Positions 1-12,554 of a DNA stretch of 12,554 nucleotides are shown here, one piece after another. Origin of the DNA: Salegentibacter sp. (GTDB lineage: Bacteria; Bacteroidota; Bacteroidia; Flavobacteriales; Flavobacteriaceae). The translations under genes were made by a program, and so were the position numbers. Location: the NCBI GenBank assembly GCA_024635815.1, contig JAGXIG010000061.1, positions 1 to 12,554 of the forward strand, read 5' to 3'. Below the pieces are notes generated by a model. It was not told the origin of the DNA, ran no database searches, and saw only the letters and a program-made list of their open reading frames with translations. Numbering within the stretch: the first letter of the stretch is position 1; the number at the start of each line of letters is the position of its first letter.

Positions 1-675
1 ATGTTTATCACTATAAACGATTTTGAGGGCGAATCTTTCAGTGGGACAATTCAGGTGCAATCTTCAAGACCGGTTTACGGATCTAGTATGATTAGCCCGA
101 TATTAAATTTTAACGATGCGCAATTCAGCTTTAATTATCGCGAATATCAGCCTTTAAATTACAGCCAGAATTCCTTTTCAAACAACCTAGTTTCCGTAGT
201 TTCATTTTATGTGTACACCATTTTAGGAATGGACGCCGATACTTTTGCTCCTGAAGGCGGAACAGAATATTACCAGGAAGCCAACCGTATAGTAAATACG
301 GCACAACAAAGTGGTCGAACTGGCTGGAGTGGTGCCGATGGGCAAAGCTCACGTTTTAGATTAAATTCTGATCTGCTCTCAAATATGTTTGCTGAATATC
401 GTATTGCTTTATATGAATATCACCGGCAGGGACTGGATGTAATGCATAAAGACCCAGAGGCCGGGAAATTGGCTATTGCTGATGCAATTGAGAATTTAAC
501 AACTATGAATTCCAGGAGGGCAAATTCTTTACTTCTTAGAAGTTTCTTTGATGCTAAAGCCGATGAGGTAACCCAAATTTTTAGCGATGGCCCCGAAATT
601 AATCGCCCAGGTTTAAGCGAGACTTTAAGCGGCCTGGCACCTCGATATGCCCGAAACTGGAGAAACCTGCAATAA
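1..675 (+). CDS. porD: PorD-like (DUF4835) type IX secretion protein, 3' part
   Basis: The reading frame is open from the first base and stops at TAA 673-675, leaving 224 residues. Recognition rests on family-like segments: FEGESFSGTIQVQSSRPVYG near the start, then NLVSVVSFYVYTILGMDADTF, and a C-terminal half containing EYRIALYEYHRQGLD. These fit the DUF4835 family, annotated as PorD in type IX secretion systems. Members are usually near 290-300 residues with an N-terminal signal peptide, so the first part of the gene probably lies outside the window. The ATG at position 1 is probably an internal methionine, since no signal peptide follows it. PorD is associated with the Por secretion apparatus of Bacteroidota; its biochemical role is poorly defined. 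The gene lies upstream of recN on the same strand with a 162-bp gap. Family assignment is from memory of conserved segments. Confidence 0.8.
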   Translation: MFITINDFEGESFSGTIQVQSSRPVYGSSMISPILNFNDAQFSFNYREYQPLNYSQNSFSNNLVSVVSFYVYTILGMDADTFAPEGGTEYYQEANRIVNTAQQSGRTGWSGADGQSSRFRLNSDLLSNMFAEYRIALYEYHRQGLDVMHKDPEAGKLAIADAIENLTTMNSRRANSLLLRSFFDAKADEVTQIFSDGPEINRPGLSETLSGLAPRYARNWRNLQ

Positions 676-837
676 AGAATTTTTACTTCATAAACGAGAT
701 TTAAATGCTCTATCCTGCTATCCAGATGCCGCTAAATTCTAAATTTTCCCTTTTATTATTGCTTGTGGACGCACTTGAAAGTTTATTGTTGATTGGGAGT
801 AATTTCTCCCGTATATTTATCGCAAATTTAATTCACT

Positions 838-2490
838 TTGCTCACAGCTCTATCCATAAAAAATTACGCCTTAATTGAAGATATAAATATTAAACTTCAG
901 GAAGGCTTTACTATTATTACAGGGGAAACCGGTGCCGGGAAATCGATTATGCTTGGCGCACTGGGACTTCTCTTAGGTAATCGCGCCGATTACGGTAGTA
1001 TTCGAGATGCCGATAAAAAATGCGTGATTGAAGGCTCCTTCAATATATCTAATTATCGCTTAAAAGATTTCTTTGTTTCTGAAGATCTGGATTATGAAGA
1101 AAATACGATAATCAGACGGGAAATCCTTGCCTCGGGTAAGTCACGTGCTTTTGTAAACGATACACCGGTAAAACTCACTTCTTTAAATAAACTTGGCGAA
1201 TATCTTATCGATATCCATAGTCAGCACGAAACCTTGAGTTTGGGAAATAACGATTACCAGTTTCAGGTAATCGATACCATCGCGAACAGCGAAACTTTAC
1301 TTTTGGATTATAAAACCGAACTAAAAGCCCTTAAAAAATTACAAAAACGACTTGTAGAATTAAAAGACGAACAGGCGCAAGCCATCAAAGAATACGATTA
1401 CAATTTATTTCTGCTGAATGAGCTGGAAGAAGCACGTTTAGAAAACGGGATACAGGAAGACCTGGAAACCCGATACGAAGAGTTGAGCAATGTTGAAGAA
1501 TTAACCGAGAATTTAAGTTCGGCTTTAAATTTACTGGAGCAGGAAGAAATTGGAAGCTTAGACAGTTTAAAGCAGGCTCGTGCCTCTTTGACCAGGATTG
1601 CCAGTTTATCTTCAAATTATGAAAATCTACATCAGCGTATAGAAAGTGTGATTATTGAACTAGACGATCTTTCTTCGGAGGTTAACAGCGCCCTGGATAG
1701 GGTAGAAGCCAATCCTGAAGAACTTGAAGCAACCAATCAAAAACTTCAGTTGATTTATAATCTTCAGAAAAAACATTCCGCAGAAAATATTGAAGAATTA
1801 CTGAAGATTAAGGACGAGCTTCAGGAGAAAGTTGCGGTAAGTGAAAATGCCGAAAATGCACTTTCAGAATTAGAAAACGCCATTGTTAAGCAGGAATCCC
1901 GACTGGGCGCTATCGCTGTTAAATTGCACGAAAAACGAAAAGCTATAGTTCCTACCTTCATCAAAGAAGCCGAAGCTTTATTGGGCGATTTAGGAATGCC
2001 TAATGCCCGGTTAAAAATAGATTTAAAGAAAGCTCCGAGTTTTTTTGCCAATGGTCAAGATGAATTAAACTGGTATCTGGCAGCGAATAAAGGTGGCGAT
2101 TTTAAGGAAATTAAAAAAGCAGCTTCTGGCGGGGAACTTTCCAGAATTATGTTGGCTGTAAAAAGTATCCTGGCCGCGCAAAGCAAACTACCGACTATCA
2201 TTTTTGATGAAATAGATACGGGGGTTTCAGGAGATATCGCGCAAAAAATGGCGGGAATCTTACAGCGAATGGGCAATGCAATGCAGGTAATTGCCATTAC
2301 CCACCTTCCGCAAATTGCCGGGAAAGGTAACAGTCATTTTAAAATATTTAAAGAGGATTCGGTGCATACCACCACCACCAAGATCGAAGAATTAAAAGAC
2401 AGCGAGCGGGTAGAAGAGCTGGCGATGATGCTTGGTGGTAAGAATATAGGAGATTCAGCGCGGGCTCACGCACGTGCACTCCTGGATTAA
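838..2490 (+). CDS. recN: DNA repair protein RecN, TTG start
   Basis: RecN is an SMC-like ATPase that acts in recombinational repair of double-strand breaks in the cytoplasm. The 550-residue length is normal for the family. The N-terminus (LSIKNYALIEDINIKL) matches RecN. Walker A GETGAGKS is at residues 29-36, a long Glu/Lys/Leu-rich coiled-coil region spans about 150-370, the ABC signature SGGELS is at 430-435, and Walker B with the catalytic acidic pair (IIFDEID, D457/E458) follows. The end, with an ITHLPQIA stretch and a C-terminal helix, is complete. The start is TTG at 838: an in-frame TAA lies at 829-831, and the next methionine (residue 39) falls after Walker A, so no ATG start can give a working protein. 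No Shine-Dalgarno sequence is seen, as usual for Bacteroidota. A hairpin GGGAG/CTCCC (795-810) lies in the leader. Confidence 0.96.
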   Translation: MLTALSIKNYALIEDINIKLQEGFTIITGETGAGKSIMLGALGLLLGNRADYGSIRDADKKCVIEGSFNISNYRLKDFFVSEDLDYEENTIIRREILASGKSRAFVNDTPVKLTSLNKLGEYLIDIHSQHETLSLGNNDYQFQVIDTIANSETLLLDYKTELKALKKLQKRLVELKDEQAQAIKEYDYNLFLLNELEEARLENGIQEDLETRYEELSNVEELTENLSSALNLLEQEEIGSLDSLKQARASLTRIASLSSNYENLHQRIESVIIELDDLSSEVNSALDRVEANPEELEATNQKLQLIYNLQKKHSAENIEELLKIKDELQEKVAVSENAENALSELENAIVKQESRLGAIAVKLHEKRKAIVPTFIKEAEALLGDLGMPNARLKIDLKKAPSFFANGQDELNWYLAANKGGDFKEIKKAASGGELSRIMLAVKSILAAQSKLPTIIFDEIDTGVSGDIAQKMAGILQRMGNAMQVIAITHLPQIAGKGNSHFKIFKEDSVHTTTTKIEELKDSERVEELAMMLGGKNIGDSARAHARALLD

Positions 2491-2506
2491 AACTATGGCC
2501 TGAAAG

Positions 2507-2514
2507 TAATTTTG
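2507..2514 (+). promoter_or_regulatory. Possible Bacteroidota -7 element upstream of fabI
   Basis: TAATTTTG matches the Bacteroidota -7 consensus TAnnTTTG exactly and lies in the 160-bp recN-fabI gap. No TTG/TTTG -33 element is present at the usual distance upstream. A start near 2520 would give a leader of about 130 bases, long for this phylum, so this is only a candidate. Confidence 0.3.
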
Positions 2515-2650
2515 CTATATTTACGGGCTCAACAAGTAACCAATAATCTCGGGAAAAGCCGGGAAGGTTTGGATTAGAAACTATTTTTTCAAGTTTCTGA
2601 AGAACCTTTTAATATTAAACCCTCAATAAGGGAATAAAAATTAGATCACT

Positions 2651-3472
2651 ATGTCATATAACCTGTTAAAAGGAAAAAAAGGAATTATTTTTGGCGCTCT
2701 AGACGAGAATTCTATTGCCTGGAAAACCGCTGAACGCATCAAGGAAGAAGGCGGTGAGTTTGTGCTTACCAACGCTCCAATCGCTTTAAGAATGGGAACC
2801 ATTAAGGAACTGGCCGAAAAAACCGGATCTGAAGTTATTCCTGCTGATGCTACCAAGATTGAAGACCTGGAAAACCTGGTTGAAAAATCTATGGAGATCC
2901 TTGGCGGAAAAATCGACTTTGTACTTCACGCTATCGGGATGTCTGTAAACGTTAGAAAAGGAAATCATTATACAGAGCAGAATTACGATTTCACCCAAAA
3001 AGGTTGGGATATTTCTGCGGTTTCTTTTCATAAAACTATGCAGGTGCTTTATAAAAAAGAAGCGATGAATGAATGGGGAAGTATTGTGGCGCTTAGCTAT
3101 ATGGCTGCACAACGTGTATTCCCGGATTATAATGATATGGCCGATAACAAAGCTTTTTTAGAATCTATAGCGCGTAGTTTTGGTTATTTCTTCGGGAAAG
3201 ATCATAAAGTAAGAGTAAATACTATTTCACAATCGCTAACTCCAACCACTGCGGGACAGGGAGTAAAAGGGTTTGACGGCTTTATCGCTTATGCCGATAA
3301 AATGTCACCACTTGGAAATGCTACTGCATTAGAGTGCGCCGATTATACCGTAAGCTTGTTCTCTGATCTTACTAAAAAAGTAACGCTTCAAAACCTTTTC
3401 CATGACGGCGGTTTTTCTAATATGGGAGTTAGCCAGGAAGTTATGGAGTCTTTTGTAAAAGGGCAGGAGTAG
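2651..3472 (+). CDS. fabI: Enoyl-[acyl-carrier-protein] reductase (NADH) FabI
   Basis: FabI catalyses the last reduction of each fatty-acid elongation cycle (trans-2-enoyl-ACP to acyl-ACP) in the cytoplasm. The 273-residue protein is a short-chain dehydrogenase/reductase. The nucleotide-binding start KGIIFGALDENSIAW is at about residues 10-24. The segment HAIG (93-96) aligns with the E. coli HSIG segment that contains Gly93. The catalytic Y-x6-K pair is Y160 and K167 in FPDYNDMADNK, with the additional conserved Y150. The C-terminal part contains RVNTISQSLTPTTAGQGV and LFHDGGFSNMG, as in FabI. Length is slightly above the roughly 260 of enterobacterial FabI. The ATG at 2651 gives the expected N-terminus. 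The gene appears to be transcribed alone, with 160 bp before it and a 265-bp repeat-rich gap after it. Confidence 0.96.
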   Translation: MSYNLLKGKKGIIFGALDENSIAWKTAERIKEEGGEFVLTNAPIALRMGTIKELAEKTGSEVIPADATKIEDLENLVEKSMEILGGKIDFVLHAIGMSVNVRKGNHYTEQNYDFTQKGWDISAVSFHKTMQVLYKKEAMNEWGSIVALSYMAAQRVFPDYNDMADNKAFLESIARSFGYFFGKDHKVRVNTISQSLTPTTAGQGVKGFDGFIAYADKMSPLGNATALECADYTVSLFSDLTKKVTLQNLFHDGGFSNMGVSQEVMESFVKGQE

Positions 3473-3494
3473 AAGTAGGTTAATTTTAATACGG

Positions 3495-3691
3495 CGTCTA
3501 GCATATATAGAAGTTCTCATAACTTAGACCTTGAAACCAGTTCAGGGAGACGTGTAATTGAAAAGCAGCTTCAGCGTGACGTTGATTTTGAATACTGAAT
3601 TCACAATTTTACGTCACGCTGAATTTATTTCAACGTCTAATATGAATAGAGTTTCAGTCAACTTAGACTCTGAACCCAGTTCAGGGAGGCG
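3495..3691 (+). repeat. REP-like repeat pair: two 58-bp direct copies around an inverted repeat
   Basis: Copy 1 (3495-3552) and copy 2 (3634-3691) are both 58 bp and align without gaps at 44 of 58 positions. Both start with CGTCTA and share CTTAGAC and CAGTTCAGGGAG near the end. Each copy contains imperfect inverted repeats: GTCTA paired with TAGAC, and in copy 2 CTGAA-cccag-TTCAG. Between them is a perfect 13-bp inverted repeat. The motif style (CGTCACGCTGAATTTATTTC followed by an inverted relative) resembles dispersed palindromic repeats common between genes in Bacteroidota. No transposase is present. Confidence 0.75.
3570..3623 (+). terminator. Perfect 13-bp inverted repeat downstream of fabI
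   Basis: TTCAGCGTGACGT (3570-3582) is the exact reverse complement of ACGTCACGCTGAA (3611-3623), with a 28-base AT-rich loop. It is the strongest stem in the window and sits about 100 bp after the fabI stop. It could end fabI transcription, but there is no clean T-run after it and the loop is long, so it may only be part of the REP-like element. Confidence 0.35.
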
Positions 3692-3737
3692 ATAAGAATA
3701 AATTAATAATTAAAAACCCTCAAATTTAAGCTACCGC

Positions 3738-4745
3738 ATGAGTTTGGAATATTCTTTTGTAATTCCCGTTTATAACCGGCCTGAGGAGGTTAGGGAATTA
3801 CTAGAGAGTATGCTTGAGCTTCAATTTGATAGTAATTTTGAGATTGTGATCGTTGAAGATGGTTCCAGTGTTCCGTCGCAGGAGATCGTAATGCAGTTTC
3901 AGAAGAAACTCAATGTTAGCTATTACTTTAAAAAGAATTCCGGGCCAGGTGATTCCCGGAATTTCGGGATGCGAAAAGCGAAAGGCAACTATTATCTTAT
4001 CCTGGATTCTGATGTTATATTACCCGAAAATTACTTGCAGGAAGTAGATGATTTTCTTCAACAAAATTACTGCGACTGCTTTGGCGGGCCAGATGCTTCA
4101 CATCCTTCATTTAGCAAAACCCAAAAAGCTATAGATTACTCGATGACCTCGTTTTTTACTACCGGGGGAATTCGGGGTAAAAAATCTTCGGTAAACGATT
4201 TTCAGCCGCGGAGTTTTAATATGGGAATTTCCCGAAAAGCATTTGAAGCTTCAGGGGGATTCGGGAAAATTCATCCCGGGGAGGATCCCGATCTTTCCCT
4301 GCGACTTAAAAAACTCGGATTTAAATTATGCTTAATTTTCGAGGCGGTGGTTTTTCATAAACGCCGAATAGACTGGTCAGAATTTTATACCCAGGTGCAA
4401 AAATTCGGAATGGTGCGACCAATTCTTAATAAATGGCATCCGGGTTCGGGAAAGATTACCTATTGGTTTCCGGCAGTATTTAGTTTGGGCTTTTTATTGG
4501 CCATCTTACTTTTAAAACTGGGATTTTGGTGGTTGTTTGTATTATATGCGCTATATTTTGTGCTGATTGCCATTCACGCGGCCATAACTAATAAAAGTTT
4601 AGGAATTGGTTTTTTAGCGGTTTATGCCGCTTTGGTACAATTTTTCGGGTATGGTTCTGGTTTTATGAAATCGATATGGCATATTCATATTTTAAAACAG
4701 GATCCTGAACACGAATTCCCGAATTTATTCTTTAAAAATGTTTAA
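3738..4745 (+). CDS. Membrane-anchored family 2 glycosyltransferase
   Basis: This 335-residue GT-A-fold enzyme should transfer a sugar from a nucleotide donor at the cytoplasmic face of the inner membrane. The acceptor is unknown. Visible motifs are the start FVIPVYNRP (7-15), VEDGSS (39-44), the metal-binding DxD motif DSD (90-92) after a GDSRNFGMRKAKG stretch, and GEDPDLSLRLKKLG with the probable catalytic acidic residues E182/D183. The C-terminus holds two or three hydrophobic segments (about 242-258, 262-282 and 287-309), which anchor the protein. The start ATG at 3738 directly gives the conserved N-terminal strand. The stop overlaps the next gene by 8 bases, indicating one transcript with ybbR-like and coaE. 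No clear promoter is seen in 3692-3737. Similar genes beside YbbR/CoaE genes occur in flavobacteria, but a specific pathway cannot be named. Confidence 0.88.
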   Translation: MSLEYSFVIPVYNRPEEVRELLESMLELQFDSNFEIVIVEDGSSVPSQEIVMQFQKKLNVSYYFKKNSGPGDSRNFGMRKAKGNYYLILDSDVILPENYLQEVDDFLQQNYCDCFGGPDASHPSFSKTQKAIDYSMTSFFTTGGIRGKKSSVNDFQPRSFNMGISRKAFEASGGFGKIHPGEDPDLSLRLKKLGFKLCLIFEAVVFHKRRIDWSEFYTQVQKFGMVRPILNKWHPGSGKITYWFPAVFSLGFLLAILLLKLGFWWLFVLYALYFVLIAIHAAITNKSLGIGFLAVYAALVQFFGYGSGFMKSIWHIHILKQDPEHEFPNLFFKNV

Positions 4746-5694
4746 AAACATAAGATTTAAGCGTATCTCCATTAAAAGATCCAGTCTAAAGACCTTTGGA
4801 TTCTTTTTGCTGTTTGCTTCCCTCATCTGGTTTTTTGTACAGATTTCAAAAGAATATACGCAGGTTATAGATATCCCTGTGTCTTATGTGAATATTCCTA
4901 TGGATAAAAGTATTGCTAAGGAAAGGCCGCAAAATTTAAAATTAAGAATTCAGGATAAAGGCTTCGCTATTTGGTATTACAAGATCTTTAGGCCTGAGGT
5001 AAAATTGGATCTCGGCAAAGCTTTAGAGGCAGATGGGGAACTGGTCTATGATTTTGAAGCCAATCGTGAATTTCTGGAAGACCAGGTAAATATAAATTTT
5101 GAAAAAGCCCGTTTTATTCAGGAAAGTCTTTCTATAAAATATCAGCCGAAAAAGAAAAAAAAGGTAAAAGTAAATCCCGATATCGATTTAAGTTATGCGG
5201 TGGGCTATTCTGCTAACCAGCCGGTTACGTTGCGCCCCGATTCCATTCAGGTAAGCGGGCCTGAAAATATTATTGATACCCTTCAAAGTTTAAAAACCGT
5301 TTATTTAAGGCTTAATAATATAAATACTAATGTTTCAGGGAAAGTAAAGATCGATACTTCCAACCTGGGGATGCTGAGTTTTTACACTAACGAGGTTACT
5401 TATAGCCAGGAGGTAGAGAAGTTTACCGAAGGTAGTGTTAAAGTGCTGGTAGAAATTCTAAATCTGCCGGAAAACACTAATATCTCTATTTTTCCGAAGG
5501 AAGTTTTAGTGTATTACCAGGTTAATTTAAGGCAGTATGAAATGGTGGAAGCTGAAAATTTCAGGGTGGTTTGCGATTATAATGATATAGATGATGGCGA
5601 CGATTTCATTATTGCTAGCATCGTTAAATCGCCTTCCTTTGTTAGGAATCTAAGGCTTAACGAGCGTAAAATTCAATTTGTGATCAAAAGATGA
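4738..5694 (+). CDS. YbbR-like domain protein (CdaR-like)
   Basis: This 318-residue protein has a basic N-terminus, one transmembrane helix at about residues 19-36 (KTFGFFLLFASLIWFFVQIS), and an exported beta-rich remainder. The segment after the helix (SKEYTQVIDIPVSYVNIP) and the later stretch LRPDSIQVSGPENIIDTLQSLKTVYLRL are typical of YbbR domains; at least two such units fit. In Firmicutes the YbbR protein CdaR binds and regulates the diadenylate cyclase CdaA. No cyclase gene is present here, so that role should not be assumed. The gene overlaps the glycosyltransferase by 8 bases and coaE by 4, so translation is probably coupled. A run of five lysines (138-142) is encoded by an A-rich stretch that includes 8 consecutive A at 5155-5162. 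Confidence 0.8.
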   Translation: MFKNIRFKRISIKRSSLKTFGFFLLFASLIWFFVQISKEYTQVIDIPVSYVNIPMDKSIAKERPQNLKLRIQDKGFAIWYYKIFRPEVKLDLGKALEADGELVYDFEANREFLEDQVNINFEKARFIQESLSIKYQPKKKKKVKVNPDIDLSYAVGYSANQPVTLRPDSIQVSGPENIIDTLQSLKTVYLRLNNINTNVSGKVKIDTSNLGMLSFYTNEVTYSQEVEKFTEGSVKVLVEILNLPENTNISIFPKEVLVYYQVNLRQYEMVEAENFRVVCDYNDIDDGDDFIIASIVKSPSFVRNLRLNERKIQFVIKR

Positions 5695-6281
5695 TGGTAG
5701 TCGGACTTACTGGCGGCATTGGCAGCGGGAAAACCACCGTAGCAGGTTTTTTTAAGGAAAAAGGTGTTCCGGTTTATATTGCCGATGAGGCCGGGAAACG
5801 CTTGTTGGAAAGTTCAGGTGATATTCGGGAAAAAGTGATGGCCTTAATTGGCGATAAGGCTTATACCGGTAAAACGCCCAATCGCAAACTTATTGCTTCC
5901 GTAGTATTTAATGATTCCGAAAAACTTGACGCGCTGAACAAGATTATTCACCCGGCCGTTGCGATAGATTTTGAAACATGGAAAGGCAAACAAGATTCGA
6001 CTTACGTAATTTATGAAGCCGCAATTCTATTTGAAGCCGGAGGCTATAAAAAATGTGATGTCAATATTTTGGTGACCGCAGATAAAGAGAAAAAGCTAAA
6101 AAGATTGCAACAACGTGATAATAGTTCTGTTGAAGAAATTGAAGCTAGAATGACCAAACAATGGAGTGATGAGCAGAAGAAAAAACTGGCCGATTTTGAA
6201 ATTAAAAATCACGATTTAGCCCTTACCAGATCTCGGGTTGACGAATTACACGAGATTCTCTTAAAACGAGGTAAAAATTAG
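5691..6281 (+). CDS. coaE: Dephospho-CoA kinase CoaE
   Basis: CoaE phosphorylates the ribose 3'-hydroxyl of dephospho-CoA, the last step of coenzyme A synthesis, in the cytoplasm. The 196-residue length is normal. The P-loop GGIGSGKT is at residues 8-15. YIADEAGK (29-36) corresponds to the conserved D-A-D-K-like motif, with D32 as the likely catalytic acid. LNKIIHPAV is the CoA-binding helix. KRLQQRDNSSVEEIEARM forms the lid region, and FEIKNHD is near the end. Two start codons lie in a row (ATGATG): 5691 overlaps the upstream stop by ATGA, and 5694 overlaps by one base. Both give a family-like start, so the true one is uncertain by one residue. It is the last gene of the glycosyltransferase-ybbR-coaE operon. 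Confidence 0.95.
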   Translation: MMVVGLTGGIGSGKTTVAGFFKEKGVPVYIADEAGKRLLESSGDIREKVMALIGDKAYTGKTPNRKLIASVVFNDSEKLDALNKIIHPAVAIDFETWKGKQDSTYVIYEAAILFEAGGYKKCDVNILVTADKEKKLKRLQQRDNSSVEEIEARMTKQWSDEQKKKLADFEIKNHDLALTRSRVDELHEILLKRGKN

Positions 6282-6287
6282 CAGAAG

Positions 6288-6307
6288 TTTTGTTAACATT
6301 TGGTTAA
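6288..6307 (+). promoter_or_regulatory. Direct repeat, 11-bp period, likely response-regulator site
   Basis: TTTTGTTAA (6288-6296) is followed exactly 11 bp later by TTTGGTTAA (6299-6307), 8 of 9 bases identical. A further TGTTAA is at 6325-6330. Direct repeats one helical turn apart are the usual site form for OmpR/PhoB-type regulators. The repeats lie about 40-60 bp before the expected transcription start of the kinase/regulator operon, where no -33 element is seen. Autoregulation is inferred. The same bases also form a short inverted repeat, TTAAC-N5-GTTAA. Confidence 0.45.
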
Positions 6308-6335
6308 ACGCCGGAAGCCCTAAATGTTAAAATCT

Positions 6336-6343
6336 TACTTTTG
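6336..6343 (+). promoter_or_regulatory. -7 promoter element TAnnTTTG of the kinase/regulator operon
   Basis: TACTTTTG matches the Bacteroidota -7 consensus TAnnTTTG and is followed by C, as is common. It ends 5 bases before the ATG at 6349, so transcription would begin at or within a few bases of the start codon. No TTTG element lies 19-21 bases upstream. Confidence 0.6.
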
Positions 6344-6348
6344 CCAAC

Positions 6349-7920
6349 ATGAATAAAAAGCTTTTTTTACTCCTCGTTATCTTGATGAGTCTCTCCCTAA
6401 TCGGAATAATTTTCGTGCAGGGATATTGGATTAAGAGTACTGTAGATGATAAAGAAGCGCAGTTTACCTACGATGTAAAGCAGGTGCTTTTACGGGTGGC
6501 CAACGAAATTCAAAACCAGGAAATAGAAGATTACTGGATGAAATTCAAGGATGCCGACACCACTAACAGTCGGCTGGAATCATCTACCATTACCGAATAT
6601 TCTTATGTAAATGAAAATAAATTAAGAAATCAAACCCTTTTTCATTCTGATGCAATCCTGGAAGAAGATTATAAAGTTTCCTCAGGTTTTATAGAATCTG
6701 CTCGGGATAGTATCCCTTTTACGAAACTTATCAATAAGAAGGTAACCAGTATTGTGAACAAACGCAATAGCATAGATGGTAGCCGCCTTAGTACGCAGCA
6801 GCAAATTGAGCGTATTATTCGTATGGATGAGTACGAGAAAAATTTGCTTAAAGAATATATTGCCGAGCATACCAGCAGGCTACCGCTGCACCAAAGAGTA
6901 AACGAGGCTACTATAGAAAGGCTTTTGGCCCAGGAATTAAGCAATCGCGATATTAAATCTGAATTTGAATATGGCGTATACAGTAATAGTATTTCCACCA
7001 ACTTGCATAGCGACGATTTTTCGCTAAGCCATCCCGCCACGTATGGGGTCCCGCTTTTTGCAGACGATATGGGAAATAGCAATTACCAGTTACTGGTTAA
7101 TTTTACCGAGAAGAAAAAAGTAGTGCTCTCGTCTATTACCTTAATGGCCTCTCTATCTATTATTTTTACTCTTATTATAGTTATAGCATATTCCAGCGCA
7201 TTATCACAATTGATAAAACAACGGCAGATCTCCCAGATTAAAACCGATTTCATCAATAATATGACCCACGAATTTAAAACGCCTATCGCTACTATTAACC
7301 TGGCCTTAGACGCAATTAAAAATCCTAAGATTAGCAGTGACGAAGAAAAGAAAAAGCGCTATCTTAAGATGATTCGGGATGAAAACAAAAGAATGCATGC
7401 CCAGGTAGAGAACGTTTTGCGAATTTCTAAATTGGAAAGAAACGAGCTGGACCTTAAAAAAGAAAGGATTCAGTTACACGAGCTGGTAGAAGATGCTATA
7501 ACGCACGTAGAACTTATTGTAGAAGATCGCGGTGGCTATGTAACAACTCATTTTGGAGCTTTGCGTTCTTCAATTCTGGCCAATCAGGATCACTTTACCA
7601 GTGTTATTGTGAATATGCTGGACAACGCGGTGAAATACTCACCGGAAGAGCCTAAAATTGATATTTATACTGAAAATGTAAAGAACTACATCATTCTTAA
7701 AATTCGCGACCAGGGAGCGGGAATGACCAAGTTGGTTCAAAAGAAAATATTTGAAAAATTTTATCGTGAACATACCGGAGATATCCATAATGTGAAGGGT
7801 CACGGCTTAGGTTTGGCTTATGCCAAACGAATTATAGAAGACCATCACGGGCAGGTCTGGGTAGAAAGCGAAAAAGGAAAAGGAAGCACATTTATAATTA
7901 AATTACCTCTAATATCTTAA
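6349..7920 (+). CDS. rprX: Sensor histidine kinase, RprX-like
   Basis: This is a 523-residue inner-membrane sensor kinase. A transmembrane helix at about 4-24 starts the protein. A periplasmic sensing region of about 230 residues follows, with no domain I recognise, then a second helix at 258-281. Only 26 residues separate that helix from the phosphoacceptor H307 (MTHEFKTPIA), so there is no HAMP domain. The ATPase part has the N box NMLDNAVKYSP (N426), G1 box DQGAG (454-458), F box FEKFYRE and G2 box GHGLGL (484-489), all intact. The partner regulator starts 4 bases after the stop, so the two are one operon. The layout and the partner resemble the RprX/RprY pair of Bacteroides. The signal is unknown. 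A promoter element lies immediately before the start codon. Confidence 0.88.
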   Translation: MNKKLFLLLVILMSLSLIGIIFVQGYWIKSTVDDKEAQFTYDVKQVLLRVANEIQNQEIEDYWMKFKDADTTNSRLESSTITEYSYVNENKLRNQTLFHSDAILEEDYKVSSGFIESARDSIPFTKLINKKVTSIVNKRNSIDGSRLSTQQQIERIIRMDEYEKNLLKEYIAEHTSRLPLHQRVNEATIERLLAQELSNRDIKSEFEYGVYSNSISTNLHSDDFSLSHPATYGVPLFADDMGNSNYQLLVNFTEKKKVVLSSITLMASLSIIFTLIIVIAYSSALSQLIKQRQISQIKTDFINNMTHEFKTPIATINLALDAIKNPKISSDEEKKKRYLKMIRDENKRMHAQVENVLRISKLERNELDLKKERIQLHELVEDAITHVELIVEDRGGYVTTHFGALRSSILANQDHFTSVIVNMLDNAVKYSPEEPKIDIYTENVKNYIILKIRDQGAGMTKLVQKKIFEKFYREHTGDIHNVKGHGLGLAYAKRIIEDHHGQVWVESEKGKGSTFIIKLPLIS

Positions 7921-7924
7921 ATAT

Positions 7925-8647
7925 ATGGAAACTGAAGACAAGAAAATTTTGTTAGTAGAAGACGATCCAAACTTTGGAACTGTCTTAAAAGATTATTTGG
8001 CGATGAACGATTACGAAATAACGCACGCCAAAAATGGAATGGAAGGTTTTGAAAAGTTTAAAAAAGACGATTTCGACCTTTGTATTCTTGATGTAATGAT
8101 GCCTTACAAAGACGGCTTTACGCTGGCTAAAGAGATAAGGGAAAAGAACGAAGAAATCCCAATTATCTTCCTTACCGCCAAAGCGATGAAAGAAGACGTG
8201 CTTAAAGGTTATAAAGTTGGGGCAGACGATTACCTTAACAAACCTTTTGACAGCGAAGTATTGCTCATGAAGATTAAAGCCATTATGCAGCGTAAAGCTA
8301 CAGACAGCGTGGCCGATTCTAAGCAGTTTGAGTTCGAAATTGGTGGTTTTCACCTTAATTCTAAATTAAGGTTTTTAACCTATAAGGATGAAGAAGCTCA
8401 AAAGCTTTCTCCAAAAGAAAACGAATTATTGCGTTTGCTTGCATTGCATGAAAACGATTTGATGCCAAGAGAACTGGCGCTTACCAAGATTTGGAGAGAC
8501 GACAACTATTTTACGTCCAGAAGTATGGATGTATATATTGCCAAACTGCGTAAATACCTTAAGAAAGACGAGAATGTTGAGATTTTAAACATTCACGGAG
8601 AAGGATTTAGATTAGTGGTGAAGAACAGCGAAAATGCCGAAGCATAA
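7925..8647 (+). CDS. rprY: Response regulator, OmpR/PhoB family, RprY-like
   Basis: This 240-residue cytoplasmic regulator should be phosphorylated by the adjacent kinase and bind DNA. The receiver domain (about 6-122) has the acidic pocket E12/D13/D14, phosphoacceptor D56 (LDVMMP), T84 and K106 (NKPF). The C-terminal winged-helix domain (about 135-232) includes LSPKENELLRLLALH, the DDNYFTSRSMDVYIAKLRKY region and the wing INIHGEGFRL. These segments agree with RprY of Bacteroides as I remember it. It is co-transcribed with the kinase gene, 4 bases apart, and is probably the last gene of that operon because a terminator-like structure follows. Its likely binding site upstream of the kinase gene suggests self-regulation. 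Confidence 0.92.
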   Translation: METEDKKILLVEDDPNFGTVLKDYLAMNDYEITHAKNGMEGFEKFKKDDFDLCILDVMMPYKDGFTLAKEIREKNEEIPIIFLTAKAMKEDVLKGYKVGADDYLNKPFDSEVLLMKIKAIMQRKATDSVADSKQFEFEIGGFHLNSKLRFLTYKDEEAQKLSPKENELLRLLALHENDLMPRELALTKIWRDDNYFTSRSMDVYIAKLRKYLKKDENVEILNIHGEGFRLVVKNSENAEA

Positions 8648-8666
8648 AGCGAGGTAATTTTCAGTT

Positions 8667-8728
8667 TCCGGGAATAATCCTGTTGCGGTGCTAACTGTAA
8701 TAGGATTGTTTTCCTACCCGGACTTTTT
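8667..8728 (+). terminator. Likely terminator after the response regulator gene
   Basis: TCCGGG (8667-8672) pairs with CCCGGA (8717-8722), and inside it AATCCT (8676-8681) pairs with AGGATT (8702-8707), with an asymmetric internal loop. A run of five T follows at 8724-8728. The place, 20 bases after the stop of the last operon gene, fits factor-independent termination, although the interrupted stem is not ideal. Confidence 0.45.
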
Positions 8729-8836
8729 AACAAAAATCTACCGGCCCATATCTGGCCAGGCATTTTTATGCCCACTTTTAAATTACGGAAAACCTTATAA
8801 TTAACGTAATTTTTAAATCTTTAACGCCACAATATT

Positions 8837-8844
8837 TATCTTTA
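8837..8844 (+). promoter_or_regulatory. Probable -7 element of the giant surface-protein gene
   Basis: TATCTTTA, followed by C, differs from TAnnTTTG at one base and lies 25 bases before the ATG at 8870. Transcription would begin near 8850, giving a leader of about 20 bases. No -33 element is evident. Confidence 0.35.
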
Positions 8845-8846
8845 CT

Positions 8847-8868
8847 GCCGGAGGCGCTAAAATCCGGC
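8847..8868 (+). promoter_or_regulatory. Leader hairpin with GGAGG before the giant gene
   Basis: GCCGGA (8847-8852) and TCCGGC (8863-8868) form a perfect 6-bp GC-rich stem with a 10-base loop, ending one base before the start codon. A Shine-Dalgarno-like GGAGG (8850-8854) is half inside the stem. SD-like sequences are rare in this phylum, and this one is too far (15 bases) from the ATG to be ideal, so its role is uncertain. Confidence 0.35.
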
Positions 8869-8869
8869 T

Positions 8870-11800
8870 ATGAAGCAAAGTTACTTTACACACCCCGGTT
8901 ATACTTTTCGGTTACAGCCGCTTAGGACCACTACGGCGCTTTTTTTTCTCTTTTTTTTACTGAATTTTTTTATTGGGTTTGGGCAGGGATTGACAATTTC
9001 CAGTGATGGGGAAGAAGGCCCTATTTTCACCCAGCAACAAACTATCCCTTTAACTTTTGAATTTGACGAACCAATTAATGGTTTTGAGGAAACTGATATT
9101 AATGTGGATAATGGAACACTTTCTGATTTTTCTGTAGAAACTCCTAATTTTGACTGGATAGAAAGTTATGATGTTGATAATTTTGATGTAACCCTAGCAG
9201 ATGCGCAAGGTATTGAAGCTAAGACAGATAGAGTAGTAATTTCCGTAGCAACTAATAGCAATGGAGAAGTCTTCGTTTTAACTTTTGGAAATGGAATTAT
9301 TAAATATGATTTAGACGGAAATAAAACCATCTTTAATAACGGAGATGATTTAGAAAGCCCGCTAGATATTGCATTTGATAGTGAAGACTATTTATATGTT
9401 GCTGATAATGGTCAGGCTCGACAAATAAAAGTTTATTCACCAGGAGGAATTTTTTTACCGAATAGAACGATTGGAAATGGAAATGCTGGAAGCAGTGAGG
9501 ATAATTTTTATGGTCCAATAGGATTGACATTTGATTCTCAAGATAACTTATATGTTACAGATGCTTATAACGGACCCTCACAAGATGAATTTGATAGATA
9601 TTCGGTAAAGATTTACTATTCAAATGGTGATTATATCAGATTTATTGGCGATAATGGATATGAATTTAATAATCCATACAGAATTGCTGTAGATGATAAT
9701 TTCAATGTCTATGTCAGTGATGCAGGAGGTGACAATGGCAGAGTTTTAGTATTTGACTTAAATCAGAATTTCATTGATATCATAGAAGGAGCAGATGATA
9801 ATTTAGGGTCACCAGGGAGTATTGTAATAGACAACAATTCAGGATTTATCTATATAGCCGATTTAGGAGAAGAAATTAGTATAGGTCAATTTTTACTAGC
9901 ACAACAAAATCCGGAAGATTTATTAGATGTTTTTCCAGATATAGTTGAGGGAATCGAAAATGATGAATATAATATAAAAGTGTTCAATGAGTCTAGAAGT
10001 TATGTTACTTCAATTTCAAATAATGTAGATTTACCTGTAGATCTAGCTCTAGATCCTTGTGGTAAATTATTAGTTCTGAATGCATACTTTGAAGGGGAAA
10101 TTAGGGAAGTTTTCGGTTTTCCAATACCAGATATATCATTAGATTTTGATATTGAATTTTACAATCGCCTCCCTAATTCCTTTACTGCTAACTTAGAAAT
10201 TGCAAATGAATGTATTCCAGCAGAAATTAAAATTGTAGAAAATACAGGGGAAAATGCAGATTGTGAGCAGACTCCTAACAGCGGAAATACTTTTATAGCA
10301 ACCTGGGATCAAACTAAACCGGTTGGAGATATTTGTGTTGAAGATGATAAAACAGTGACAAGTGGTTTTGTTATTCCAGACTATATTGATAATGGAGAAG
10401 TAAGTTTTACCGATAATTGTGGTGTAGAAAATCTAATATTCACACAAATACCTGAAGAGGGAGAAATCATAACCCAAAATACAACGGTTACTATTACTGC
10501 AACCGATGAAGCAGGTAATGTGTCTGAAGCTTGTACTTTTGAGTTGGTGGTTGAAGAGGATGAAGAACTTTTCATAGATTGTCCCGGTACTCAAACTGAA
10601 GATTTTCAAGGTAATTGTGAATTTGAACTTCCAGATTATACCGATGATGCTGACTTCACTTTGGGAGCAAATATTTCGCAATTGCCAGAGGCAGGAACTT
10701 TTATAACAGAAAATACAGAAATTACTTTAACGGCAGAACTAGATGGTGAAACACGAGAATGCACTTTTATTGTTGAAACTACCAACGAGCGCTCAGAATT
10801 AGCAATTTCCTGTCCTGAAGATCAACAGGAGGACGCTGATTCAGATGGAACTTTTGATTTACGGGATTATACGAATTTAGCTGATGTTGAAAATAATTGC
10901 GGTGAAGCGAATATTACCCAAAGTCCACCATTAGGAACCGAAATTGATCAAAATACTACTGTAACTTTAAGCATTGTAGATGATAGGGGCATTACAAAAG
11001 AATGTGAATTTGAAGTAATTTTAAATATTCAGGAAGATTTAAGTATTGACTGTCCCAGTTCACAAACTTTAGATCTTGAAGGCAATTGTGAAATAGAACT
11101 TCCTGATTATACCGAAATGGCAGATCATACCGAGGGCGCTGTAGTTACTCAAAGCCCCGAGCCGGGAACTTTAGTGAACTCAAGTGAAACCATAGAACTA
11201 ACCGCAACTTTAAATGGTGAAAATAGCTCCTGTGATTTTCAACTGGATGTAATTAATCAGGCCAATGATTTAAGTATTAGCTGTCCTTACGAAGGTACCC
11301 ATGTAATTGAAATACCGAATTCAGAAGATTCCACCATTTTTGAATTTGATAATCCTGAAGTAATCGGTGGATGTGGAGCAATTGATATAGAGCAAACCAA
11401 TGGCCCAAAATCTGGAGAATTCTTTACCGAAGGCACTACAACAGTAACATTTACGGCAACCGATGAAGTAGGAGGAAATACAGAGACTTGTAGTTTTATT
11501 GTGCGGGTGCAAAGGGAAGGAACACCCCCCGAGCCCGATTACACCTGTCCTCCGGAAGCAGAAATCCCCGATATTAGTTTGGATGAAAATTGTGAAATTG
11601 ATGTTCCCGATTATTCTTATCTCATAGAAGCCGAAAACTTTACCCCAGATTTCACCCAAACTCTGGAGCAGCTTACCGAGGAAACCTATTTTATTACTAT
11701 TGAAATAAGGGACGAAGCAACTGGTGAACTGGTAGGAGAATGTTCTTTTTCAGCAAATCTGGTAGACCTTATTCCACCAACAATTTCCTGCCCCGAGAAT

Positions 11801-12554
11801 CAGGTAGAAAATTTTAGTCCAGATACAGGTTTTGAAGTTCCCGATTATGAAAATATGGCCAATTTTTTTGATAACTGTGGGGAAGCCAGTTTTAGGCAGG
11901 AACCCGAAGCCGGGGAAATTATTTACGAAAGCACCACGGTAAATCTTTTTGCAGTAGATTCTGGGGAATTGGAAGCCAATTGTAGTTTTGAGCTGGAACT
12001 AACCGAATCCGATGTTCTAAATATCTCCTGCCAGATAGATCAAAACCTAACTCCCGATGAAGATTGCAGTTTTACTCTACCTGATTATACCGATTCGGGC
12101 GAAGTTAATTTTCAAGATGCAGAGGTAACCCAAACACCGGCCGAAGGCACAGTAATTACCGAAAATACCCAAATAAAACTTACCGCCAGCCTCGATGGCG
12201 AAACAGACGATTGCTATTTTATGGTAAACCTTGTAGATACGGAAGTGCCGGTGGCTTCCTGTATTTCTGGCTATGTAGTGAATTTAGACGAGAACGGTAA
12301 TGCCAATATAGAGCCCGAAGATTTGAACAACAATTCAACCGATAATTGCGGGATTGCTGATATAACTTTAAGTCAGACCAATTTTACCACCACCGATATC
12401 GGGGAGGTTTCGGTAACTTTAACCGTTCGGGACGAAGCTGGGAACATGGATTCCTGCGAAACCATGGTAGAAGTTGTAGGAGAGGCTTCAGGGGAATTTC
12501 AATGCAGTGAAAATGTCGTGCTTAACCTCGATGAAAACGGCCAAGCCAGTTTAA
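8870..12554 (+). CDS. Giant secreted beta-propeller/HYR-like repeat protein, 3' end beyond window
   Basis: One frame stays open from ATG 8870 to the window end (1228 codons); an in-frame TAA at 8858-8860 fixes this as the first possible ATG. Residues 1-40 are a signal peptide: a basic stretch, then TTALFFLFFLLNFFIGFGQG. Residues about 41-90 resemble the start of a bacterial Ig-like domain (FEFDEPINGFEETDINVDNG). Residues about 120-415 hold NHL-type propeller blades, each with a motif like PLDIAFDSEDYLYVADN; such motifs start near 162, 213, 265, 312 and 385. After a linker with unpaired-looking cysteines come modules of 77-88 residues, whose first cysteines are at 489, 571, 648, 728, 805, 893, 974, 1054, 1131 and 1212. 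Each of the nine complete modules has three cysteines. The protein is probably exported to the cell surface or released by type IX secretion; the C-terminal sorting domain that would prove this is not in the window. An adhesin or matrix role is inferred. Confidence 0.9.
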   Translation, partial: MKQSYFTHPGYTFRLQPLRTTTALFFLFFLLNFFIGFGQGLTISSDGEEGPIFTQQQTIPLTFEFDEPINGFEETDINVDNGTLSDFSVETPNFDWIESYDVDNFDVTLADAQGIEAKTDRVVISVATNSNGEVFVLTFGNGIIKYDLDGNKTIFNNGDDLESPLDIAFDSEDYLYVADNGQARQIKVYSPGGIFLPNRTIGNGNAGSSEDNFYGPIGLTFDSQDNLYVTDAYNGPSQDEFDRYSVKIYYSNGDYIRFIGDNGYEFNNPYRIAVDDNFNVYVSDAGGDNGRVLVFDLNQNFIDIIEGADDNLGSPGSIVIDNNSGFIYIADLGEEISIGQFLLAQQNPEDLLDVFPDIVEGIENDEYNIKVFNESRSYVTSISNNVDLPVDLALDPCGKLLVLNAYFEGEIREVFGFPIPDISLDFDIEFYNRLPNSFTANLEIANECIPAEIKIVENTGENADCEQTPNSGNTFIATWDQTKPVGDICVEDDKTVTSGFVIPDYIDNGEVSFTDNCGVENLIFTQIPEEGEIITQNTTVTITATDEAGNVSEACTFELVVEEDEELFIDCPGTQTEDFQGNCEFELPDYTDDADFTLGANISQLPEAGTFITENTEITLTAELDGETRECTFIVETTNERSELAISCPEDQQEDADSDGTFDLRDYTNLADVENNCGEANITQSPPLGTEIDQNTTVTLSIVDDRGITKECEFEVILNIQEDLSIDCPSSQTLDLEGNCEIELPDYTEMADHTEGAVVTQSPEPGTLVNSSETIELTATLNGENSSCDFQLDVINQANDLSISCPYEGTHVIEIPNSEDSTIFEFDNPEVIGGCGAIDIEQTNGPKSGEFFTEGTTTVTFTATDEVGGNTETCSFIVRVQREGTPPEPDYTCPPEAEIPDISLDENCEIDVPDYSYLIEAENFTPDFTQTLEQLTEETYFITIEIRDEATGELVGECSFSANLVDLIPPTISCPENQVENFSPDTGFEVPDYENMANFFDNCGEASFRQEPEAGEIIYESTTVNLFAVDSGELEANCSFELELTESDVLNISCQIDQNLTPDEDCSFTLPDYTDSGEVNFQDAEVTQTPAEGTVITENTQIKLTASLDGETDDCYFMVNLVDTEVPVASCISGYVVNLDENGNANIEPEDLNNNSTDNCGIADITLSQTNFTTTDIGEVSVTLTVRDEAGNMDSCETMVEVVGEASGEFQCSENVVLNLDENGQASL
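10334..12554 (+). repeat. Tandem array of HYR-like modules in two alternating types
   Basis: Nine complete modules and a partial tenth follow each other, each starting at a cysteine, usually in S/D-C-P. Type A modules (starting at residues 489, 648, 805, 974, 1131) have the second cysteine 27-29 residues later in D/N/G-N/G-CG and the third 34-38 after that. Type B modules (571, 728, 893, 1054) have the second cysteine only 11-14 residues later, in GNCEFELPDYT-like text, and the third 47-49 after that. The DNA copies are diverged, so this is protein-level repetition. Confidence 0.85.

Follow-up and report, generated by a model that had tools for sequence, protein, structure and literature searches.

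The 12,554-nt stretch analysed here (the window; Salegentibacter sp., assembly GCA_024635815.1, contig JAGXIG010000061.1, positions 1–12,554, forward strand) carries the gene of a protein with an array of HYR modules, in which modules retaining different sets of cysteines follow one another in a fixed order. In this protein and its relatives the cysteines obey a grammar of the joints between modules; the grammar has a direction, and modules at joints without a matching cysteine pair have lost several Asp/Asn residues as well. We consider it very likely, judging from sequence comparisons, that these proteins are chains of HYR modules with one disulfide inside each module (C1–C4) and a second, predicted disulfide ("staple") between C2 or C5, the partner-type cysteines, in module i and C3 in module i+1. 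The direction of this pairing, from C2/C5(i) to C3(i+1), is strongly supported by joint counts, array ends and residue coupling.

Cysteine Classes and Their Order

A preliminary description of the stretch had reported two types of three-cysteine modules in strict alternation, and the array is indeed built in this way. Cys489 to Cys1196 form nine triplets in the order A-B-A-B-A-B-A-B-A with no exception, spaced C-x27–29-C-x34–38-C in the five A modules and C-x11–14-C-x47–49-C in the four B modules; the first Cys codon lies at 10334 and the ninth triplet closes with a Cys at 12455, as had been claimed. Five A and four B modules in random order would alternate strictly with a chance of 1/126, and a chance origin is untenable because homologues show the order too; its presence there also supports the view that this arrangement is old, under selection and not random. 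The motifs attributed to the second cysteine, DNCG in A and GNCEFELPDYT in B, are likewise found, but PDY is no mark of B, as similar motifs occur in A modules 1 (IPDYI), 3 (RDYTN) and 7 (VPDYE). The open reading frame (ORF) and its modules are as follows:

8870..12553, + strand: ORF of the HYR-array protein, 1228 aa, 3′ end open (off the window edge)
10322..10567, + strand: module 1, type A (C489, C517, C555)
10568..10798, + strand: module 2, type B (C571, C583, C631)
10799..11038, + strand: module 3, type A (C648, C677, C712)
11039..11269, + strand: module 4, type B (C728, C740, C788)
11270..11533, + strand: module 5, type A (C805, C835, C874)
11534..11776, + strand: module 6, type B (C893, C908, C958)
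11777..12016, + strand: module 7, type A (C974, C1003, C1038)
12017..12247, + strand: module 8, type B (C1054, C1066, C1115)
12248..12490, + strand: module 9, type A, FDCSDIG-like subclass (C1131, C1160, C1196)
12491..12553, + strand: start of module 10 (C1212), cut at the window edge

Aligned with each other, the A and B modules of the window turn out to be one module type in which different cysteines are retained. Five cysteine positions are distinguished: C1 (in ISCP), C2 (GNCEFELPDYT), C3 (DNCG), C5 (FDCSDIG) and C4 (TCSF), with C1 and C4 both present in 9/9 window modules. A protein search returned 417 relatives, 120 of them listed, and an iterated profile applied to these 120 and the window protein delineated 1670 modules. 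Complete modules carry C2 and C3 (F) or C3 and C5 (D), while half modules have only C3 (A), C2 (B) or C5 (5), producing arrays such as ABABABABABA5D, A5A5A5ABABA5D and FFFFFFFFA. The A/B alternation recurs in Salegentibacter and its kin and belongs to a broader grammar, in which the module after A is B or 5 and the module after B, 5, F or D is F, D or A. Random A/B order is absent from the homologues, as 4109 neighbour pairs include one AA, one BB and no 55. The proposal that A/B pairs are the general unit fails, however, since the same joint rule also yields arrays of the forms BFFF..A, FABFAB, A5A5, A5DA5D and 5DDD..DA.

Joints with unclassed modules aside, exceptions to the grammar in the first protein set amount to 47 (20 D5, 19 DB, four AD and four AF). 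In the D5 rows viewed, the "5" module has a shifted C3 (GVRC or similar), and the DB joints contain an extra linker Cys; each of eight AA gaps proved to hold a B-like module overlooked by the profile. A linker Cys (e.g., DPLFVC) ahead of a B module whose predecessor is complete was noted in P0030, P0032, P0034, P0036, P0037, P0072, P0073, P0089, P0097, P0218 and P0259, where it would stand in for C3. Two further peculiarities were recorded: in P0003 and P0012 the final D module has lost both C1 and C4 and retained C3 and C5, and P0216, P0145 and L074 have arrays whose modules (X) were scored as having a C2-like as well as a C5-like cysteine.

Joint Statistics

The phi coefficient was calculated for three pairings: C2/C5 and C3 of one module, C2/C5(i) and C3(i+1), and the reverse, C3(i) and C2/C5(i+1). 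Before counting, we dropped modules that aligned over fewer than 60 columns (fewer than 62 or 66 in the analyses of ends and inserts, coupling, Asp/Asn residues and first modules) and joints in which the two modules lie more than 30 residues apart; near-duplicates were removed at a 6-mer overlap above 10% to obtain cluster representatives. The first two sets, on which the module profile was built, together comprised 238 proteins with complete modules (237 from protein searches and the window protein; 118 representatives), and a third, retrieved with a D-type array, added 118 new proteins (64 representatives). An even draw of 296 Bacteroidota genomes was added to reduce the bias that comes with similarity searches; HYR matches occur in 32 of them, and 40 hand-chosen regions from 26 of these 32 gave 35 arrays of at least three modules.

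Across the 238 proteins, C2/C5(i) and C3(i+1) go together with a phi of 0.954 (table 3681/23/5/316), compared with 0.600 for the reverse pairing and −0.089 within the module; the 118 representatives give 0.965, 0.615 and −0.080, respectively. The corresponding values are 0.860, 0.214 and −0.005 for the 64 representatives of the third set, and 0.929, 0.195 and 0.133 for the even sample. Mismatches number 11 in 2089 joints of the 118 representatives, against a mean of 212.7 and a minimum of 184 in 2000 within-array shuffles, 14 in 1641 joints of the third set (shuffle mean 93.3, minimum 74) and three in 236 joints of the even sample. As C2/C5(i) correlates with C3(i+1) and hardly at all with C3 of its own module, the spare cysteines most likely bond between neighbours.

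Most mismatches have a visible cause. The 238 proteins gave 68 raw mismatches; in 40 of them a module falls short of 60 aligned columns, and another 20, including 19 DB joints, have an extra linker Cys. Inspected by eye, the third-set mismatches comprise 11 AD joints, in which C5 sits in an insertion outside the column window, one DB joint with a linker Cys and two oD joints in P0301; two of the three in the even sample involve a PKD-like segment, and in L055 a Cys-free HYR-like segment precedes a C3 module. Arrays of diverged modules with a free order of A, B and 5 were not found beyond the mismatches listed among 217 arrays or proteins (118 and 64 representatives and 35 arrays).

The same order inside arrays, with B or 5 after A, would also arise if C3 of an A module bonded C2 or C5 of the module that follows, and F and D closed C2–C3 or C3–C5 bonds internally. 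The reverse phi of 0.600–0.615 in the sets rich in alternating arrays fits such a register, but it falls to 0.214 in the third set and 0.195 in the even sample, and the within-module correlation of C3 with C2/C5 that the internal bonds would call for is near zero in all sets.

Residue Coupling

A mean-field coupling analysis of 4157 distinct neighbour pairs (effective number 2212) gave C1–C4 as the top pair within the module (9.6). Between modules, C2(i)–C3(i+1) ranks second of 6226 (z 16.4), with the adjoining column pair 17–34 at rank 8, and C5(i)–C3(i+1) ranks 11th; pairs in the reverse direction rank lower (18, 21 and 29), and C2–C3 and C5–C3 inside one module show a coupling of about zero, contrary to what the A-to-B register with its internal bonds would need. 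These cysteine ranks draw on the same signal as the joint counts, so new information comes only from two other couplings. Coupling between columns 19 and 50, which adjoin C2 and C5, suggests that these two cysteines are spatially close, and C3 shows coupling to columns 64 and 68 (TD..GN). Rank 1 and several other pairs (72-72, 72-5, 5-72, 5-5 and 24-24) we take to reflect likeness of neighbouring modules or arrays lacking C1 and C4.

Array Ends and Inserted Segments

Because an A-B pair and a B-A staple predict the same order inside arrays, the two registers are told apart at ends and inserts. In 31 cluster representatives the first module lies close to the Met; it is B in 14, F in 10 and of another type in seven (several of the F and other starts being fragments). 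A larger set of 67 distinct first modules, located at most 75 residues from the Met, includes 56 without C3: 44 lack both C3 and an upstream Cys, and 12 have the upstream Cys only, in 11 cases within an apparent signal peptide (P0050 is the exception). Another 10 have both cysteines, and one (P0115) has C3 only; first modules of the third set include four with both and one, in P0302, with C3 only. P0030, P0054, P0073 and P0089 possess C3 and the upstream Cys, and in their relatives P0032, P0034–P0040, P0043, P0066, P0071 and P0097 both are missing from the apparent mature part. Relatives in which a propeller is followed by an A-first array have an odd number of cysteines before the array in 28/29 cases and exactly one in 21/29; this lone Cys often belongs to a LAFNxCxxMYV-like motif, whose counterpart in the window is Cys397.

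At the other end, a Cys follows within 40 aa downstream in 127/137 last modules that have C2 or C5 and in 5/38 that lack them. Gaps of 104–690 residues in the first set fall between A and B (six) or A and 5 (eight) and never between B and A or 5 and A. Inserted segments have Cys near both ends in 9/9 cases at F|F and no Cys in 8/8 cases at A|B or A|5. A C2/C5(i)–C3(i+1) bond thus appears to fit most of the data on ends, caps and inserts.

Bonding from A to the next module would leave the first B or 5 and the last A of BFFF..A and 5DDD..DA arrays unpaired, and the 14 long gaps would split A from its partner. Joint counts, insert cysteines and coupling led us to drop both the intramodular C2–C3 and C3–C5 bonds and the A-to-B bond, and we rate this register as quite unlikely. 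The two-module unit of the preliminary description is likely to exist, with its register moved by one module: ends, inserts and coupling put the covalent link between B and the next A. Given the direction of pairing, the covalent unit of the window would be B-A, with an unstapled A-B joint after each pair. Four staples are predicted from joint counts and coupling, and a likely start of the staple chain from Cys counts upstream of the array in A-first relatives:

10616..10900, + strand: predicted staple 1, Cys583 (module 2, C2) to Cys677 (module 3, C3)
11087..11374, + strand: predicted staple 2, Cys740 (module 4) to Cys835 (module 5)
11591..11878, + strand: predicted staple 3, Cys908 (module 6) to Cys1003 (module 7)
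12065..12349, + strand: predicted staple 4, Cys1066 (module 8) to Cys1160 (module 9)
10058..10060, + strand: Cys397 where the propeller region ends, probable first link of the staple chain

P0173, P0234 and P0237 share a recurrent non-HYR insert of ~155 residues with a Cys at its start (ECxx) and another near its end (GC.xP), which seems to act as a chain module. Long non-HYR segments at A|B or A|5 are present in Salegentibacter-type arrays of P0014, P0019, P0020, P0023, P0028, P0041, P0053 and L001, and the proteins bearing these segments have tandem-95/cadherin-like Pfam labels (assigned to the whole protein).

The order might also be a mere record of duplication, an ancestral two-module block having been copied without any structural link by cysteines. 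Related Salegentibacter proteins do have blocks in common, and likeness of neighbouring modules is visible in the coupling table. However, module 9 belongs to another sequence subclass, with an FDCSDIG-like region whose Cys is lost, so the alternation is more than repeated copying of one A-B unit. The rule also spans subclasses in P0012, where a D-type A precedes an F-type B and an F-type A precedes a D-type 5; it is valid in F, D and mixed arrays, shuffles stay far from the observed mismatch counts, and C3 and the upstream Cys are present or missing together in related proteins. We therefore regard pure duplication as even less likely than the A-to-B register.

Asp/Asn Residues at the Joint

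Along with C3, modules lose a set of Asp/Asn residues comprising the linker Asp, D32, N33, D64 and N68. D32 is present in 0.98 of F modules versus 0.39 and 0.32 of the C3-less B and 5 modules, D64 in 0.99 versus 0.38 and 0.33, and N68 in 0.93 versus 0.24 and 0.09. The linker Asp occurs in 0.92 of stapled joints versus 0.52 of open ones, and the C4-to-C1 spacing (10–90% range) is 15–16 residues at stapled and 15–18 at open joints. We infer that these Asp/Asn residues form a site at the joint, perhaps a calcium-binding one, which is retained or dismantled along with the staple. Since C3-less modules lose the set as well, unstapled joints would differ structurally and may be hinges. Bonding of the spare cysteines between chains (dimers or fibres) or to a metal, with the neighbour correlation marking a joint site for that purpose, would suit the Asp/Asn residues that accompany C3 and make a metal at the joint possible, but it is the least likely of the alternatives, as capping cysteines before the first module, after the last and in linkers fit one-to-one pairing within one chain.

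Observations at Odds with the Proposed Chain

A number of observations weigh against disulfides between successive modules. P0050, P0115 and P0302 misfit at the N-terminus. When an upstream Cys is sought in a fixed 40 aa window before the first modules of all arrays, its association with C3 is weak (phi 0.376; 51/27/18/47), partly because of cysteines in signal peptides and partly because the partner is more distant in propeller proteins. The number of cysteines is odd in 11/42 representatives. Among the insert rows, 6/23 are of other types, with P0218, P0102, P0104 and P0112 misfitting and P0011 fitting in part. Eight raw mismatches out of the 68 show neither a truncated module nor a linker Cys as a cap (P0122, P0235, P0047, P0230, P0055, P0216, P0050 and P0112), although in P0050 and P0112 C5 is displaced, as judged by eye.

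Structure predictions also fail to fix the joint. AlphaFold gave the nine-module array a predicted TM-score (pTM) of 0.30 with confident, all-strand individual modules, and a B-A pair of likewise all-strand modules a pTM of 0.59 with a predicted local distance difference test (pLDDT) of 76 in the linker block. Joint pLDDT in the nine-module model does not separate the classes (69, 70, 87 and 90 at B-A; 79, 74, 72–74 and 79 at A-B). Foldseek and VIA-align detected general Ig-like likeness only, and PDB sequence searches found no solved relative with these cysteines. Weak PDB sequence matches to cadherin, PKD-collagenase, SraP and an IgA receptor were obtained; none was accepted as kin.

Relation to Known Systems

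By score membership the window modules are HYR: the protein reaches 68 bits with Pfam HYR (PF02494) against a gathering cut-off of 21.7 (E 9.4e-19, 4 stretches). Pfam treats all modules with a single model, as had been pointed out, and the array is matched nonetheless. Predicted all-strand modules and the conserved C1–C4 pair of the window array also agree with HYR; in contrast, Pfam models single modules, whereas the C2/C3/C5 grammar described here belongs to the joint, and half modules A, B and 5 are a variant.

Cadherins are tandem Ig-like repeats with calcium-bound linkers, in which loss of a site produces a flexible joint. The arrays resemble them in having tandem, probably Ig-like modules with conserved acidic residues at the joints, but differ in the cysteine pair that accompanies the joint; cadherin repeats are among the fold matches, sequence matches are weak, and a calcium role here is conjectured from the joint loss of Asp/Asn residues. 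The Aureispira grappling hook protein GhpA (PDB 9flp, 9fly, 9flw and 9flx) yields TM-scores of 0.13–0.16, a likeness at the domain level only, and is not among the profile sequence matches.

HycP of C. cellulolyticum likewise has a long HYR array (23 modules), and its role, like that of bacterial HYR modules generally, is called unknown (PMC3723904). The main text of that paper contains no word beginning with "cystein" or "disulf" (PMC3723904). The modules are thus known, and the joint rule is new as far as our literature search goes: no description of disulfides between HYR modules or of a joint rule was found in a search that covered only a minority of subscription journals, and the founding HYR paper (Callebaut 2000) may hold one.

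Window Protein and Its Surroundings

The ORF encodes a hydrophobic N-terminal stretch, an NHL propeller (Pfam NHL, 34.1 bits), a small two-Cys region, nine modules and the beginning of a tenth:

10211..10264, + strand: Cys448 and Cys465, small region between propeller and module 1

The full-length Salegentibacter-type relatives P0003 and P0012 have a C5-only module at the position of module 10, then a module with C3 and C5 and a linker Cys after it. The window ends before the C-terminus of the protein; the sorting domain of the type IX secretion system (PF18962) is found on many of the 120 relatives listed, and export of the window protein is probable because of it. Pfam PASTA (PF03793) scores 54.5 bits over the whole protein against a cut-off of 23.2, its best stretch covering only profile positions 37–61 of 64 and lying inside a HYR-like module (window 11129–11203, residues 754–778); this match on an LPDYT-type array is probably a cross-hit on Q-x-P-xx-GT. 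PASTA labels or names also appear on many of the 120 relatives listed. Upstream ORFs (window 838–8647) resemble what we take to be recN, an enoyl-ACP reductase, a glycosyltransferase, a YbbR-like protein, coaE, and a histidine kinase with a response regulator.

Proposed Mechanism and Its Meaning

In the proposed chain each module would be closed by a C1–C4 disulfide, and the partner-type cysteine of module i, either C2 ahead of the second main strand or C5 further along, would bond C3 of module i+1. F and D would continue the chain, B or 5 start it, and A end it. In the window, staples would join B2-A3, B4-A5, B6-A7 and B8-A9, leaving the A-B joints unstapled, and the first A would probably be stapled to the propeller side. 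The protein would be exported and its cysteines would pair outside the cytoplasm, yielding B-A blocks that alternate with hinges as a jointed rod, which may hold up the propeller; the order of A and B would then set the stiffness of the stalk and the spacing of its hinges.

Whether this amounts to a readable joint code, in which a Cys pair and an Asp/Asn site are switched on or off at each joint, stiff blocks lie between hinges, and stalk mechanics follow from sequence, is in our estimate an even bet. Under such a code the stapled block would be two modules long in BABA, three in BFA and the whole array in BFFF..A. HYR arrays are often long in the evenly drawn Bacteroidota genomes with HYR matches. 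If the joint rule is true, it accounts for the odd cysteine numbers per module, shows which modules to keep together in constructs and offers an annotation test for truncated or mis-joined arrays, and stiffness and hinge spacing would become predictable from sequence.

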